From NCBI GenBank assembly GCA_003024785.1, contig PUQB01000069.1:276501-340500 (forward strand): a stretch of 64,000 bases of DNA, in the 5' to 3' direction. This DNA comes from Selaginella tamariscina (lineage: Eukaryota; Streptophyta; Lycopodiopsida; Selaginellales; Selaginellaceae). Below, piece by piece: positions 34,605 to 43,201 of this stretch. Below the pieces are notes generated by a model. That model saw only the letters and a program-made list of their open reading frames with translations, had not been told where the DNA came from and searched no databases. Each line of letters starts with the position of its first letter. The first letter of the stretch is position 1. The position numbers were made by a program, and so were the translations under genes.

Positions 34605-34728
34605 GTTGACAAAACTCGATGACCAATATTAATTTTTAAATTCGTGTAAAACCTTAGTTTTAACCACGGAACTCGTTGACCAATATTAATCTTTAAATTC
34701 GTTTGAAACCTTAATTCTAACCATCGAG
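34605..34728. repeat. Two tandem 60-bp repeats at the MULE insertion site
   Basis: A unit beginning ACTCG(A/T)TGACCAATATTAAT and ending TAACCA occurs twice in tandem (about 34614-34673 and 34672-34728). A third, diverged copy occurs beyond the MULE at 42830-42900 (TTGTTAACTAATATT). The MULE inserted inside this small array. Confidence 0.6.
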
Positions 34729-34924
34729 GAGGATTAGCAAAAACCGGGCTTCGTACAACGGGCTTTTCGCATATTCTGGAATATCCAGGAATATTCTGTC
34801 AAATAAATGGGAATATTCTAGAATATTCTGCCAAGTAGATTTCTTTAACTTTCAATATAAAATGCCGACCAACAAGTGAAAACGCTAATTATTTGCCTAC
34901 TAGACTTTACTATACCGACTGGAC

Positions 34925-37900
34925 TTAAAAAGTCGCAGGTTCGACATTGCGCTTGCAATCAACTAATAACCGATGCACTTCTGCTGGAGTAAGGGTCCGC
35001 CTCTGTAAGAAGTAAGTAATCGTTGGGTCCAATCCAAGAACATGAGTGTACACAAAATACATGTGTTGGCAGGGGCGCCAGTTCTTGGCTTTCTGAAAAG
35101 TTGCACAAGTGCATGACGGAACAGTAGAAATTGTTACCTTAGCAAATTGCATGCCTGCAGAGACAATGAAGGCCTCAGTCTTCCCTCTTTGAACCACCTC
35201 CACGTTGTTGATCCGACCTTGAAGAATCTTTGCCTGGTTGTAATGTTTCTCATGTTCCTTGGACATTCTTGTTGGTGTTCGCACACTCCGTCCATGGTAT
35301 GTTGGTACTCTATGTGCTCCCTCTCCTCTTGGTGGTGATGGTGTTCGATCCATTCGGCTACTACTGCCGTCTACCATTTCTTCAAATCCCTCCAACTTGA
35401 ATCCTACTTTCAAAAGAGCTTCAACCTCATTTTCATTCAAGTTTGTTCCTTTTTGAACTGGCCAAACCTCTGGAACTTCTGGAATACTCTCAGGAGGAAT
35501 CCCTGCATATGGTCGTTTGAAGCAACAAGAATCGCGTGGGCAGAACCATAACATCTGATGAGTGAACTCAATGTTCCCAAATGCATTTGTATATTGCCGT
35601 CTACCGTGAAATCCTGGTGCTGGTACACGATGTGGATATCCTATGGGTCTGCCACACTTGCTGTTACCGTCCTGAGTGAGACCTAGACATTTCACCTGAC
35701 TTGCCTCCCCAATGCGTCTGATGGCCCACTGAGTCATCAACGTCTCTCTTTCAGTGACATTGACATCTTGAAACTTGAGTTTTTTCCTGCGTGCATTTGG
35801 GATGACTTGTTCTGCATATTGTGTGTCATGTCTATGTGTACGAAGCGCATCAATCCCATGGTCCCCAGTTGACGGTTGACGAACGGTTCGAACACGAACA
35901 TTTGTTGTAGAGGCAAACTCTAGACTTGCAAGATGCTCTTCATCACTAACAAGATTTGCAAAAGTTATTGGAGACACTGATTTTCCCGCTGAAAGTTTCT
36001 GCTGTGCACGTTTCAGAAGAGTTTCCATGGAAGGACCTGTGCCTGAATATCTCCCTTCAAATGATGCCTTGACCTTTGCACTTTGGAAAACAGCATCTGT
36101 TAAATCTAACATTGTTGCCTCCAACAAAGGAACACGCTTCGTCAGCCTTGCTCTTCGTGCTCTTGCATGAACAACTTCGGAGTTGTTAGTGGTAGGCACA
36201 TTCGCAACACCTCTTCTGTCAAGTCAATTATCTCTGTCATGGAAATATGATCTTCATGTCTTGCCCACCATGACAGCCATGTTTGCAAAGCGCTAACGTT
36301 ACTGGACCTGCCTTCCCAAAATGACTCCAACATTACTCGTCGTTCCAACTTATCTTGGTTGGTTAGTGCTGCAGGCCATGAGCGTGCAAGGTTCATGTGC
36401 TCCTCCCTGTGTTCCTCAAGTATCCACTTCTTTGTAACTTGACGCACTGACTGCATGTAATGGAACAAACAACTCCTTTCTCTTCCTCTCATCTTTGACC
36501 CATTGTTTAAAACTTGACGCAATGCTAACCAAATTGCACCTGACTCATCTGACATGACCCCGCAAAGTTCACATTATGAAGTCCTTGCTTGCTGCACACT
36601 TGAAGCATAGTGTTCAAAAATTTGATCACCGCCACACTATCCTCCCTGATCATGTCACCATAAGCAAGTGTCACCATCGACCTTAAACTACACAAACATA
36701 AGTGCATTATATTAGTAAGTATTTTAAAACATAGATATGTTAATACTTACAATGGATCATAGAGATGTATTCCCAGTGTACACCAATCATCAATACGATA
36801 TGTGTGGTCTAGCACCACCCACTGCTGTTCGAGATCACCTCCAGATTGACACCTTCTAATGTAGTCTATTCCGGATCCTGGCCGGCAACCGTCATTTTGA
36901 AGATTAAAGGCTGCTCTTCAGCTCCGTTGAGGTCCATTCCGGATATGTGGATAACATGTATGAATGGGATTGATAGCTTCTTCTTTAACTGCAGAAGTCC
37001 TTCGTAACCTTCTTTGAAACGAGTGTCTCTTGTTCTAGCCTGAGATATCCATTCTCTTGTTCTACAGTGGAAAGGTTAAGCATCTCCAAAAGGAAATAAT
37101 AATTTTTTGCTTACCGGTGGTGATTTGTGAGTGGTAGTAGATCTGACAGAACCTTGTCGTATGATACATCTCCAGAATCTGTTACCAGTTTTTCCAGAAT
37201 TTATTGCGTGCTGCTTGAAACTCTATGACACGTTGATTAGTTCTTGGGGTTGCAGCGACTACTTTGTTGATTGTCTCCTTAGCTCTGTCTTTAGAGACCA
37301 TGGATTCGGGTGGTCTACGTGGGTGTTGATGTTCTCCAAGATGGATGAAAAGCCTCGTGCATGTGATATCATCTGGAATTATGTAATATGCAACAACGGA
37401 GCATGTCTGCACTAGAAGGGGCTCATTGTTGCAATGCACACACTTCATTCCAAGCACTCTACCATCTGAAGATAACTAGACTTTATCAATGGTGCCCTTA
37501 AATTGGCAGTCATTTGCTTTCTTACTGAAGCTGATGAACGGACATGTTTCCTTTACGCATTTCATGTGGCCAATACATGAACTGCGACTAACACGAGCTG
37601 GAACATTCCAATGTGTGTGCAGTGTTGAGTCCAGTAATCACACCCATCCTTCTATTCATCCCTTTGTACTTGTCCTTCATTGTTTCGTGTGCTGGCAACT
37701 CGTAAATCACATTTCCGTTGCAATCTTCTGGGACCTCAGCAACTTGCTGAATCGATGACGAGACCACCAGTTGCTTCCCAATCCTACATCTCTAACTATT
37801 GCGAAGTATTGTTACCATAGAATTGTCCCGATCTGTTGTCTCCAACCGGAATAGCGGTCCTTTGGAAGGAAGAAGTGTGTAATACACAAAACTGCTAGCT

Positions 37901-38133
37901 CTTGCCCCTTCTGGTTTACCTCAACATTCGCAGCATCTCCACCAACAACAGACATCAAATGCAGCACTTTTAAAAGATTGCCAAGGTGGAATGTCAAATG
38001 CAGACCTGAGATCTGTTTCAAAGACAAATGCAATACCATCTTCATCTGCAGGGAAGTCCTTGTCAACACCATTGTAGCTGATTCTTGCCATGTAGCAAAA
38101 ATGGAACAAACAAAAGTTAAAATTCAAAGACAA
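34925..38133 (-). pseudogene. MULE transposase with Cys/His N-terminal domain and SWIM finger
   Basis: Minus-strand gene, about 3.2 kb, starting at 38133 (MARISYNGVDKDFPADEDG). An N-terminal Cys/His-rich region follows (about 37600-37380, CIGHMKC and KCVHC with LGEHQHP), probably a FLYWCH/WRKY-type DNA-binding finger. The transposase core shows DHTYRIDDW (first D, about 36800), MSDESG (second D, about 36550) and CLFHYMQSVRQ (about 36478), as in MULE DDE domains. The C-terminal part (36199-34925) has a SWIM motif CTCATFQKAKNWRPCQH near 35110-35060. Introns are visible at about 37115-37058 and 36770-36690. A frameshift occurs near 36195 and the 37800-37460 region contains stops. It would cut and move the element. 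Confidence 0.85.
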
Positions 38134-38587
38134 TGAACATATTACACACGATGGTTAATGTGTTTGTTTTAGTCATGAGGCAATCATTTCATTGACAAAT
38201 ATTAAAAATAATATTAATTGCGTGCGTTTTGGGTTGAAGAGTGAAATTAATTTACTGCGTCTGGGTAGGTTTTTGTAAATTAAAAAGTTTTACTATGTAC
38301 AAGTGGCGATCATGCATGCAATATGTTTACAGAAATTAGGTTGGTTTTTAATTGATTTAGGGCGGCTAGGGTTTTGCAATTAGGGCGGCTAGGGCAGCTA
38401 GGGCGGCTAGGTTTTCGTGGAGCAGGGGCGCATTTGGGGGCATAGCGTGGAGCAAATGTGGCTCCAGGGATTAATCACAATAGGCTTCCATTGAGGGGGT
38501 GAGTATTTTCTGATTTCTTCATGATCTGCTCATGATCTTTTTATGTCTGTTCATCTTTTTACATCTCTTCACAGTTGCAAGAAATCC

Positions 38588-38990
38588 GAGTCGGGCCTGC
38601 CGATTCGGACTGACTTCGTTGTCCGTCCCAGTCGGCAAGCCGACTGGGGTGGACTGTTCCAGATCCAGTCAACATTTTGATAGGGGTTGACTGTTCCAGC
38701 CCAGTCAGAAGCATTTTGACTAGGGTTGACTGTTCTAGTCCCACCTAGCATTTTGACTGGGCCTTGCTTCGTTCCAGTCCCAGACTGGGCCTCCCTTTGT
38801 TGCCAGTCCCAGTCGGCATGCCGACTGGACTACCTTTGATGCCAGTCCCAGTCGACATGCCGACTGGGACTCCCTTTGATGCCAGTCCCAGTCGGCATGC
38901 CGACTGGGCCTCCCTTTATTGCCAGTCCCAGTCGGCATGCCGACTGGGACTTACAACAACTGCTCTCTCAGTCGGCACGCCGACTGTGAG
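38588..38990. repeat. Array of 14-bp palindromes spaced 40 bp, between the divergent MULE genes
   Basis: The palindrome GTCGGCATGCCGAC (or a one-base variant) begins at 38812, 38851, 38891, 38931 and 38971, with a further copy at 38631. The five right-hand copies are spaced 39-40 bp, embedded in a unit CTCCCTTTGATGCCAGTCCC. To their left (38645-38760) are three diverged copies of a related unit containing TTGACTGTTCCAG and CATTTTGACT. The array occupies the intergenic space between the two MULE genes, where their promoters must be. It could be a binding array for one of the element's own proteins; that is inference. Confidence 0.85.
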
Positions 38991-39070
38991 GGCTAGTATG
39001 TTTTTTTAATATTTATTAAACATCTTTGAACATTTATTAGAGTTTTTTGTTAAACCTTATTGCTTTGTAG

Positions 39071-42000
39071 ATGCGCTCTTCACAACGTTTACAAGAAAAG
39101 AAGATGAAGGAGCCTACTGAGAGAGAAGCAGAAGCTAGAGCTGCAATTCAGAGAGGGCGTCAGGGTCGTGGGAAGGAAGTAGGAAGCTGGTTGTGGTTCT
39201 TTCAGCCCCCATGAACCCTATGTAGAACCTCCTTCTCATACACTACTTGAGGGCAAACAATCCCATTTTGACCCTAAGCACATGACCTTGCGAGTGCCTC
39301 ACGAAAAGGGCTCTTGCTAACATGTTTAGGTTGTTCAACCCTTGAATTGCGCGTGTGCGTGTTGACCTTTTTATACCCTACATTCTTTATACTGTATGTA
39401 TAACATATAAAATGTAGATATCCTCGTGCTCTCCTGACCAGTCCTGCTGGCTTGCCTGTTCAACTGGAGCATCACTTGAAGGTCCTTGTTCCTGAACCAA
39501 GAACAATCAGACTTTGTTGAAGAAGTTGAGGATGATGTCTTACCACAGGAGACACAGAGCAAACAGAAGACACACAAGCCTCATGCGCAGTGACTTTGTC
39601 GAGTGATGAAGAGGATGAACCAAGAACAAGAAAGAGACGACGCAAAGTTGCTGGAGATTCAGAGGCTGCTAAGAAGAAGAAGAAGGGTAAAGCAGAAGTG
39701 CCAGATAATGAGGAAGTTTACAACATTGCAGCCAGCATGCATTCGGAGAGTGCAGTGTGTCTTCTCGCGAAGATCACAATCCGAGAATATGGAGAGGCAC
39801 CGGATGTCCCTATTTGCCGAATTCTGGGAAATGAGCAGGTGCGGAGAGTCAATCCAGCGGATCTGGAATCTTTTGACTAGGAGTTTCAAGAAGGCAGTTA
39901 GTTATTTGCGCAACACCACTCAGTTCATCCTTCAAGTTGGGGACCCCATGACAGATGCAGATCTGGCAGCATTGAGAAGCGATGAAGCGATGTATGCTCA
40001 GCATTTGGCTTTTGAGGAGGAGCTTCAGTCTGACATGTTCCGGCAATGGGCACCAATGCTTTCGATGAAGAAGTTCATTTGTTGAGATGGTAATCACAGG
40101 CTAAAGGTGCTTCAGAAGCTGTACATAGAAGACACGAAAGATAAGAATCAGTGGGCAGTGAGAGTGCGTTCAGGCTTCATCCATGCTGGGGTCATGGATA
40201 ATCTTCAGCTTGTGACAATGTTTCAGCAAATTAATAGGTAAACATAGTGACCTCTAGATCATAGGATTAATTAACTTCGAGATTTTCAAATATGCAGTTC
40301 CTCCGCAACGGTAGTGCAAACCACACTGCCACATCTTCTGCTATCTGTGAAGACATGTTGCACAGTGAGGAGGGCACAGCGAAGATCTTGGCCAGGCTCA
40401 GTGACAAGGAACAAGATGACATAAGAAAGTGGAAGGAAAGCGCAACTAGACAACAAGCTTGGCATCCACTTCCGAATTTGATCTGTGCAAAGTTTTTTTT
40501 TGAGGTACCACGTCTCACACTTATATTACTTAGTTGATTACGTCTGTGAATTACAGAGTGAGATTGAGGATGATCTTGAGAAGGCTGCAAGGGCATCCAA
40601 AGGCAACAAATACCAAGAGCAACAACAGGTCTACATTAAGCATGACAAGCGCATGATGAAGATCTTAGCCATCATCGATCCTGCATTGGGTGAAGAGTGG
40701 TTCGACAAGGTAACCCAAATCACATGGAAACAATGCAGATGGATGGGGTTGGAAAAGCTGTACGCGCTGTCAAGGGCAAGAATTCCAAACGAGACGAGAA
40801 TCATGTACTTCAATAAACTGGTACGTCTCGATCTGAAGAGAGAGAAAGAGACACTTGGATTGTCGGGTGTTCAGGATAAGGAGTGGATAAGGTGGTTTAC
40901 TATCGATTTGTATTGGCGGGTGATCAGAGAGGAGGCAGTACAGATTCTCACGGGACTCATCGAGGATGGCGAGTGGAGCAGGCCGGTTACAGATTTCACG
41001 ACTTGGTATGATGAAGTGCGGGTAAAATGCAAGAACGTGATGTTCTAGCCATTCCATGAGTGTGTGAAGTTCACTTACTCCATAGAGCCGAAAGAGTTCC
41101 TCGAACACGAAGAGACAGCAAGAAGGATGATTTGGAGGTAAGGATGATCTTCTTGACATTGTTACATTCTGACACTACTATATGTTCATTACAGGTATGT
41201 CGCAGCGAGAAAGGTGCCTCACACACAGACTATGGTATTCTGGTCAGATTAGATGGAAGCACCACACATGTGGTCGAAGACAGATCTGGCCTGACAAAGT
41301 TCGAAACGTGTACACGTACCGTTCTGGCTTGATTATCCACCTGGGCAACCACCAACATGGGAGAAGGATCTCTACAATGAACACTCAAAAGATCTCCCAT
41401 GCATCTCATGGGATCCGGCAGAGGTCGACTTCATTAAGAAGACAAAGGCCAAGGCAAAGCGGCGTCAGCCTGTGCAGCAGTCAAAGAAGACCTCAGATAC
41501 AGTTGGCACCTCCACTACTCGCGATCCAGCTGCCTTCTTCAATTTATCTGAAGTGCTACCATCGCAGGGAACCATGGACATCAAGGATGACTTGGTCACA
41601 TTCGTCCCTTCACTTGCTACAACTCGAGGTGATAATTTCTTGGCGATTGATGACATCGAGGAGATGCAACAGGCCGTGCTCACGGATGAGAAGGAAGAGG
41701 AGGTTCCTGCCGCTAGACTGGTTCCTTATAGAAAAGTTCAGACACAGGTGGCCAGGTACCATACAGCTGACAACCAGACTCGCTACCAGCATATTGCGGG
41801 AGAATATGGTTTCAACTTGGTGATCTTCGACCTTCCAAATGGGACCTTGCCAGGAAATACAACGAGTGATACGCCATACCTCTACCTTGATCCAGTGAAG
41901 TTCGATGAAGCACTCCAGTTTGCAGGTATGCATATGGCTGCAAATGGTTGGTTGGTTGTGTTTGCTGCAGCAAACACCTGGGATCAAGTTGTCCGAGCTG

Positions 42001-42596
42001 CAAGTGTGGTGGACCTTCAACTTGCTGCAACGTACTACATCTACAGAGGGCGTGGTTGGGGCTACCGCAACAAGATGAAGGTACTTTTTTCTTTATTCAT
42101 GAAGTTCATTAATGATTTTTGATGTTTTAACAGGAGAGCATCCTGCTCCTTCTTGTCTTCCAAGATGCATCTAGAGGATTGCGCGATAATCCGCTGCGTT
42201 TGTCATCAACAATTCTTGTTGATAATCCTGAGCGGTTCCAAGAACCATGGTAGGCATTTCATTTCAACAATTTAAGTATTTACCATTATCTTCACATGCA
42301 GGATGGACTACCAACCGAAGAGCACTCGATTGATGCAGCTCGTGATAGAACGACTCACCCGGCCAGGTGATCTTATCTGGGATATAGGCAGTGGTACGGG
42401 GTCCTCAATGCTTGCAGCTATCGAGCTGGGGAGAAACATTGTTGGGACTGAGAAGAACCCTGAGCTCGGGAGAATTGCTATGAACAGGATTAAAGAGAAC
42501 ATCCAGCCAGAGGAAATCCCAACCCAACCAATAGCGACGTCAAGTAGGACTGGTGGTTCACGAATTGCAGCATTGCTCAATCGTAAGAAGAAGTGA
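39071..42596 (+). pseudogene. ParB-like / beta-class DNA methyltransferase gene carried by the MULE
   Basis: Spliced plus-strand gene. The start at 39071 (MRSSQRLQEKK) is tentative. A basic KRRRK/KKKKK region (about 39630-39690) resembles a nuclear-localisation signal. A ParB/sulfiredoxin-like segment follows, with ILQVGDPMTDADLAAL and DGNHRLKVLQKLY (39930-40125). A helical middle part has TWKQCRWMGLEKLYALSRAR. The C-terminal methyltransferase has catalytic motif IV as DLPN (41829-41840), then motif X and motif I (KSTRLMQLVIERLTRPGD, DIGSGTGSSMLAAIELGR, GTEKNPELG; 42312-42460). Motif IV before motif I is the beta order used by N6-adenine/N4-cytosine enzymes. Introns: 40238-40297, 40505-40556, 41138-41194, 42081-42133, 42250-42301. 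Broken by TGA at 40083 and TAG at 41046, both one C-to-T change from sense codons, and a frameshift near 39880. Confidence 0.8.
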
Positions 42597-42814
42597 CAAG
42601 TGTTGAATTGTACTCTTTGGTGTTGAAATTAAACTTTAATAATACAGTATAAACATGGCTATGATTTAAATATTTTTTTTGTTAATTGCCGACTGAGCCA
42701 AAATCCTAAATTCTAAGAATATTTAGGAATATTCTAAGAATATTCTGGTAGATTCTTTAGAATATTCCGGGTCCAAGCCCGGAAGCCCTCTTTTTGTCGG
42801 GACTCACCATCGAG

Positions 42815-43201
42815 GTGTTCATTAATGTTGACCAAACTTGTTAACTAATATTATTATTAAATTCGTGTGAAATCTTAAATTTAACCTTTGACCTATATTG
42901 ACTTTGAGTTTAGTCAAAAAGTTTAATTAGCTGTCCCTCTACTCTCTCAAAGTTGTTTCACAGCAAGTTAAACGGAGTTTGTCTTTATATTATTAAGGAC
43001 GTTTTTTATGTCTTTGAAGGCATTGCTTATAAAACAAGCACCACCAATAACAATAGCAATCTTAATAATCTTAGTCAGATCGATGACATGAAGCTCATAT
43101 GATAAAAGAACCATATCATGCTTGACCAGGGTTATAAATCCTAGTAACGAGAACATCAGTCATACACTAGCTTCCAATACTCTTTTTTTTTGTGTCAAAC
43201 A
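42815..43201. other. Intergenic, no gene seen
   Basis: AT-rich right flank of the MULE. Its first 90 bases are a diverged copy of the tandem unit seen left of the MULE. Nothing else recognisable. Confidence 0.5.

Follow-up and report, generated by a model that had tools for sequence, protein, structure and literature searches.

A two-gene, Mutator-like DNA transposon of Selaginella tamariscina with a methyltransferase-like accessory gene and a candidate self-recognition site

Background

In the Ectocarpus transposon Sola1-1_Ec32, an accessory gene is described as encoding a ParB-like domain and a methyltransferase domain predicted for N4-methylcytosine (4mC) or N6-methyladenine (6mA), and its authors suggest that the accessory protein binds and modifies its own transposon (PMC12477816). 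The same source also cites similar proteins in other transposons (Petroll et al. 2025 among them), from hosts differing from the present one, and reports giant EnSpm elements with accessory genes in red algae (PMC12477816). Other mobile elements act on chromatin marks by different means: retrotransposon DNA methyltransferases (DNMTs) of dinoflagellates and, in one case, of charophytes, which are relatives of land plants, can methylate CGs de novo (PMC5890265); VANC is a sequence-specific anti-silencing protein which binds noncoding element DNA with tandem repeats and causes loss of silent marks (PMC10398659); and transposon-borne TET/JBP enzymes in fungi as well as SET genes in MuDR families are mentioned (PMC12730594). 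Here, we analysed a single DNA transposon of about 8 kb with two divergent genes, located at positions 34729-42805 of a 64,000-nucleotide stretch of Selaginella tamariscina DNA (contig PUQB01000069.1, positions 276,501 to 340,500; hereafter the window).

The observation made on this locus by a first-pass annotation is confirmed, with corrections. The element recurs across the genome with the same ends, two families of it have inherited the same gene pair, and the intergenic arrays of both families share a nonamer. The most economical reading of the cargo is self-marking: the element would be a two-gene cut-and-paste transposon in which the protein of the methyltransferase-like gene (gene 2) recognises CAGTCGGCA arrays and marks or occupies its own DNA. 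We hold this reading, in which both binding and methylation are inferred, tentatively and at slightly less than an even chance.

Results

The element was delimited in the window by the following features:

34720-34728, no strand: left copy of the target-site duplication (ACCATCGAG), identical to 42806-42814
42806-42814, no strand: right copy of the target-site duplication (ACCATCGAG), an exact match to the left copy
34729-34790, + strand: left terminal inverted repeat, imperfect, with subterminal DNA rich in GAATATTC, the same left end being found in other copies
42740-42805, - strand: right imperfect terminal inverted repeat, from the alignment of the ends

The claim of one element with a perfect 9-bp duplication and matching ends was borne out, the duplication being exact at both sides and the imperfect inverted ends aligning, with gaps, over about 60 bp (GAG..CAAAAA..GGGCTTC..CGGGCTT). 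An AT-rich repeat of 54-57 bp is present in two copies to the left of the element (34613-34723) and in one copy, at 67 %, to its right (42834-42887); since this repeat flanks the element on both sides, the insertion site may lie within an older repeat.

Copies were searched in a eukaryotic assembly of 300,702,823 bases and 1,391 contigs, and all copy numbers are lower bounds. The central exon of gene 2 (exon 4) gave at least 140 scored matches among 1,664 candidates, 130 of the 140 being stop-free in the matched part. At least 151 matches were obtained for the last exon, and 98 of the 150 listed were identical over all 106 residues (counted by hand). Family A, to which the window element belongs, is large and young. 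Among 20 fetched copies, 16 extend from one end to the other and each of these contains both gene regions, five of them with internal deletions of the transposase or intergenic part (L012, L022, L023, L024 and L025). As for the remaining four, L009 and L028 begin at a contig end, the stretch chosen for L010 was too short and L013 is truncated in its left part. With two further full copies (L051 and L052), both gene regions are present in 18/18 stretches having both ends. Seventeen copies, that of the window among them, were scored at both ends: 11 had perfect duplications of 8-11 bp, differing in sequence, four others showed 1-2 mismatches and none was found for L018 and L026. Scoring allowed shifts of up to 6 bases and was not possible for L009, L010, L013 and L028.

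Copies of the same ends lacking the methyltransferase gene, which the first-pass annotation had named as a finding that would refute it, were looked for among the best 40 of 215 candidates of a search with the 200-bp left end. For 24 of these 40, a listed methyltransferase exon lay in the expected orientation at a distance of 5.7-8.4 kb (assessed by eye), two were at contig ends and 14 had no listed methyltransferase exon at that distance. Three of these 14 were examined: two proved to be the full elements L051 and L052, and the third, on contig C824, without a match in the 3 kb read, was the sole lack and fits an ordinary deletion derivative. Two unrelated adjacent elements, or an assembly join, would account for the gene pair of the window only with extreme improbability, as the same ends, both genes and differing target duplications occur together at many sites. 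The recurrence at many sites also shows that the element is not a chance configuration, and nested or unrelated neighbours were rejected on the basis of the same survey.

Gene 2 and its recognisable parts are as follows:

39071-42596, + strand: methyltransferase-like gene, six exons in other copies, broken in the window; from copy comparison
39200-39499, no strand: rearrangement private to the window copy, with 39420-39499 (80 bp) inverted and 39200-39419 (about 220 bp) absent from 20 compared copies
39780-40110, + strand: putative ParB-like segment (VPICRI..NEQVRRVNP..L..L, then an in-frame stop, then DGNHRLKVLQKLY), by motif only
41700-42080, + strand: probable first half of the methyltransferase domain, with motif-IV-like FNLVIFDLPN; from profile alignment (hhalign) to a phage methyltransferase of phrog_67
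42302-42596, + strand: last exon, second half of the methyltransferase domain, with motif X and the S-adenosylmethionine (SAM)-binding motif I (RPGDLIWDIGSGTGSS), to the stop codon; from PF01555

The last exon (given as 42276-42593 in this comparison) matched PF01555 (N6_N4_Mtase) with 39.6 bits and an E-value of 7.5e-10, for a curated cut-off of 26.7, the match spanning profile positions 165-220 only. The domain of copy L019 matched phrog_67 (E 4.2e-12), the best matches among PDB sequences were beta-class methylases (MboIIA, 1.6e-4; CcrM, 5.8e-4; DpnA, 6.1e-4) and hhalign to five phage methylases gave a probability of 97.1. From these homologies, we consider the presence of the C-terminal half of a beta-class amino-methyltransferase in gene 2 as secure, in agreement with the first-pass annotation, which had recognised such a domain on the strand opposite to the transposase from its motif X/I stretch. 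The same annotation had also noted a motif-IV-like DLPN upstream, which is present at the right position, at the end of a hydrophobic strand where DPPY is expected; its form is not canonical and is taken up in the Discussion.

Where open, the exons of gene 2 measure 959, 208, 581, 889, 116 and 295 bp, and a 3' splice site of exon 2 at the canonical TGCAG yields a single frame. Joining the six exons of L019 gives a protein of 1,014 residues, with a homopolymer at the end of exon 2 that conflicts with the frame. A full protein cannot be made from the window copy, which is interrupted by in-frame stops, including one immediately ahead of DGNHRL, and by the rearrangement at 39200-39499. Near-identical copies (L019, L015 and others) differ by one or two bases in gene-2 exons, several of these differences lying in homopolymers. 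Many of the frame differences among copies may be long-read assembly errors; because length differences may have this origin, counts of intact copies are unreliable.

Protein searches for a full-length relative of the gene-2 protein returned none with any of three queries. The full-length protein gave no match at E <= 1e-3 (7,999 candidates scored), the methyltransferase part gave none at E <= 0.1 (1,526 candidates), and the profile built from families A and B gave four matches among 8,000 candidates scored, the best being a 239-aa PF01555 protein (6.9e-4).

Searching the genome with the PF01555 profile yielded at least 150 scored matches of 739 candidates, all 150 above the cut-off, and these matches revealed a second family (B), first seen adjoining L013 and L026. 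Eight stretches picked among the matches (L035-L042) all contained this domain, in which LDLPNE and DIGSGTGS can be read. On contig C113, a full family-B element (L043, L042 and L050) has the same layout as family A and an 8-bp duplication (TTACCATT). Wherever the surroundings were read fully, i.e. in 20/20 copies (19 of family A including the window, and one of family B), the domain is linked to the transposase.

Between the two families, identity ranges from 50 to 81 % by segment for the transposase and from 48 to 72 % by exon for gene 2, whose best conserved exon is the motif X-I end (72 %); exon boundaries of gene 2 seem the same as judged by reading frame. The proportions of synonymous (pS) and nonsynonymous (pN) differences were 0.844 and 0.297 for gene 2, and 0.793 and 0.257 for the transposase. 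By these proportions, purifying selection on gene 2 is about as strong as on the transposase. Since synonymous sites are saturated while pN is low, the gene pair is older than the split between A and B and has been under selection. The element had been proposed to have captured a methylase; as a one-off event this does not stand, given that two families with saturated synonymous sites share both genes, and a decayed one-off capture was likewise rejected on this comparison.

Mutator-like elements often carry captured gene pieces, and gene 2 could be such a functionless passenger, as in Pack-MULEs. This would agree with the broken gene of the window and with the fact that none of 21 copies examined is open through the six exons without a frame difference. 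The constraint between A and B, with pN far below pS, is the main argument that makes a passively captured gene unlikely, and the stop-free exon-4 matches and identical last-exon matches (at least 130/140 and 98/150, respectively) point the same way, so that we consider this explanation very improbable.

In two of the 20 fetched copies, the family-A element has a family-B neighbour, in tail-to-tail orientation and no more than about 1 kb away (L013:9114-9901 and L026:8559-9901), the other copies not having been searched with B; such neighbours could be due to chance, from copy number, or to mutual targeting.

Two features of the noncoding DNA bear on how the element could be recognised:

38594-38989, no strand: intergenic tandem array of about 40-bp units with the palindrome CCCAGTCGGCATGCCGACTGGG, candidate self-recognition sites; from repeat analysis
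42687-42695, - strand: isolated subterminal half-site, reading CAGTCGGCA on the - strand and lying 118 bp inside the right end; from copy comparison

The 18-bp palindrome core occurs six times in the window at no more than one mismatch, for 0.01 expected at up to three mismatches, and 1 to 11 exact cores were found in 19 fetched copies. In the one family-B copy read there, the same place is occupied by 6.5 units of 137 bp, six of which contain TGCCGACTGA...TCAGTCGGCA. The half-site CAGTCGGCA is present nine times in the intergenic region of A and 15 times in that of B (10 in the whole window element, 16 in the B stretch), and was absent from the 55,973 window bases outside the element. Among the nonamers found three or more times in an intergenic region, 21 in A and 100 in B, it alone is common to the two families, for about 0.016 shared words expected by chance; when the letters of B were recoded with repeats kept, 22 of 23 recodings gave no shared word and the remaining recoding gave one. 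Because coding regions are saturated at synonymous sites, the presence of this nonamer at corresponding places in both families suggests that its recognition by a protein is conserved. When units are anchored on the left palindrome half (101 units), each position of the right half shows 98-100 % conservation, and most flanking positions are at 43-84 %.

Transposases commonly bind near element termini, and the half-sites could be transposase-binding and promoter elements, gene 2 then modifying something else or other DNA. In line with this, a single half-site lies 115-134 bp from the right end in 14/16 family-A copies, and half-sites are found near both ends of B. Most sites are nevertheless central (3-24 exact half-sites per copy in the central region of 16 family-A copies), and no exact half-site was found near the left end in these 16 copies. 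We regard this explanation as unlikely, albeit worth retaining.

The transposase gene was delimited as follows:

34925-38091, - strand: transposase gene of several exons, Mutator-like by anatomy; from motifs, the gene of copy L016 and the family-B homologue

Its start codon was read as 38091-38089, and its translation contains DHTYRID, MSDESG, CLFH and a SWIM-like CxC..CxH. The identification as a Mutator-like element (MULE) transposase made in the first-pass annotation is only partly upheld: the DHTYRID, MSDESG and SWIM-like motifs are present, but the MULE transposase profile PF10551 gave no match in the Pfam search at E <= 1, nor with the core segment at E <= 10, and SWIM profile matches (E 0.011 and 0.026) were both below cut-off. 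Further MULE traits were found in the target-site duplications of 8-11 bp (8 bp in family B) and in the terminal inverted repeats. The element is Mutator-like by anatomy, not a proven MULE.

Outside the element, psaA/psaB-like plastid sequence was observed within large contigs at several places (L031 and L032, on contigs C536 and C605, and L033). The nearest match of the psaA of C536 (L031) was PDB 6l35, presumably from Physcomitrella; of the 67 differences counted in the first 468 aligned residues, 15 have S, P, R or H here and F, L, W, C or Y there, with none in the reverse direction, a pattern which, from the residues involved, is the mark of heavy C-to-U editing. On contig C908 (9362-12171), the open frames that enclose PF00223 matches have reported lengths of 6,283 and 55,104 aa; they resemble foreign or low-complexity sequence more than a plastid gene.

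Discussion

Under the self-marking reading, gene 1 would supply the transposase and gene 2 an accessory protein that starts with a charged leader, continues with a ParB-like segment for interaction with DNA and a conserved middle, and ends in a SAM-binding beta-class amino-methyltransferase domain. The gene-2 protein, rather than the transposase, would bind the half-site CAGTCGGCA, which forms palindromes or inverted pairs in the region between the divergent genes and occurs as single sites towards the ends. A promoter shared within the array would drive both the transposase and the accessory protein, and the latter would methylate or occupy the arrays via its SAM-binding domain, thereby telling element from host DNA. 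Such marking or occupancy may sustain the expression of both genes in the face of host cytosine methylation, and might also guide the transposase.

Several observations weigh against this reading. Regarding the arrays, the statistics rest on one shared nonamer, and the transposase could equally be the half-site binder. Conservation also extends beyond the 18-bp core, positions -15, -6, -2 and 19 being at 92-98 % between units, and the opposite anchor (119 units) gives a left half conserved at only 86-88 %. As for the ParB-like segment claimed by the first-pass annotation, the DGNHRL motif is indeed present in the translation ahead of the methyltransferase motifs, and the segment (VPICRI..N..VRRVNP..L..L...WDGNHRL..LQKLY) shows 57 % identity between L019 and family B over 177 residues; it matched no profile in Pfam, PHROGs, NCBIfam or a profile search of PDB sequences, its one match among phages was to a primase at E 2, and the label rests on the motif. 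The AlphaFold2 model of this segment, from a single exon and a two-row alignment, was unusable (mean predicted local distance difference test score, pLDDT, 36.7), that of the first methyltransferase half, from a single exon and a two-row alignment, was poor (mean 47.4), and Foldseek found no match for the latter at E <= 0.001. The poor single-exon models and the Foldseek result themselves weigh neither for nor against. Regarding the fate of the copies, transitions relative to the majority base per site amounted to 0.0024 at non-CpG C/G and 0.0042 at CpG on the transposase side (13 copies), and to 0.0030 and 0.0107, respectively, on the methyltransferase side (16 copies). The resulting CpG excess, about 1.7-fold and 3.6-fold, is a hint that copies do receive 5-methylcytosine (5mC).

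Motif IV adds to these points. It reads DLPN in the family-A and family-B copies read instead of the canonical (D/N/S)PP(Y/F/W), and lacks the second proline and the aromatic residue which are normally needed there. The hhalign alignment to a phage enzyme of phrog_67 (160 columns) moreover pairs the neighbouring LDPVKF, not DLPN, with the phage DPAY. The assignment of motif IV to DLPN is thus tentative, and because the motif reads DLPN, catalysis by the gene-2 protein is uncertain. Gene 2 may accordingly encode a pseudo-methyltransferase, i.e. a SAM-binding but non-methylating regulator acting by occupancy or recruitment like VANC, an explanation which overlaps with self-marking in its broad form. 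The replacement of the catalytic motif by DLPN in the copies read of both families while motif I (DIGSGTGS) is intact would fit it, as would the resemblance of the arrays to the tandem repeats in noncoding DNA described as VANC targets (PMC10398659). On the other hand, the motif X-I end is the best conserved gene-2 exon between A and B, beyond what a mere scaffold would seem to need. We judge this explanation to be a real possibility, though somewhat improbable on balance.

Returning to self-marking in its strictest form, a vascular-plant DNA transposon would write its own 6mA or 4mC at palindromic arrays, in a layout resembling parS/ParB, across two deeply diverged families, and this would have accompanied a recent rise in copy number to well above one hundred. 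A variant mark is also considered here because motif IV is altered. We see this full proposal as doubtful.

To our knowledge, enzymatic N6-adenine or N4-cytosine DNA methylation in vascular plants is an open question. A genome in which a prokaryotic-type amino-methyltransferase domain has at least 150 scored matches (739 candidates) bears on it, and the transposase linkage together with concrete candidate target sites makes it directly testable with long reads.

No land-plant or Mutator-like ParB-methyltransferase transposon was found in the titles and abstract beginnings listed from the open-licence literature. Such genes have already been reported in algal transposons, and the present case appears to extend them to an apparent land plant. 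The following comparisons are by description. With the algal ParB-methyltransferase accessory genes, the layout, the size (about 1,000-1,100 aa) and the methyltransferase domain agree, the ParB part being here a motif only. Like that of Sola1-1_Ec32, gene 2 lies on the strand opposite to the transposase and its product is of similar length (1,104 aa there and 1,014 here); unlike the present element, which is Mutator-like by anatomy, about 8 kb long and found in a land plant as two families with a shared array site, Sola1-1_Ec32 belongs to the Sola1 superfamily, measures 21.5 kb and resides in a brown alga. The likeness to MboIIA, CcrM, DpnA and phrog_67 concerns the SAM motif I region, placed after the motif-IV half, and the difference is the DLPN of the element. 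The retrotransposon DNMTs also represent a mobile element with its own DNA methyltransferase, but are C5-cytosine enzymes in retrotransposons (PMC5890265). VANDAL elements with VANC share with families A and B an accessory gene and tandem short-motif repeats in noncoding element DNA, whereas VANC is described as a DNA-binding protein and not as a methyltransferase. Beyond the algal reports, as far as their available parts describe them, the present element adds evidence that the gene pair has been constrained over a long time, and a candidate recognition site common to both families.

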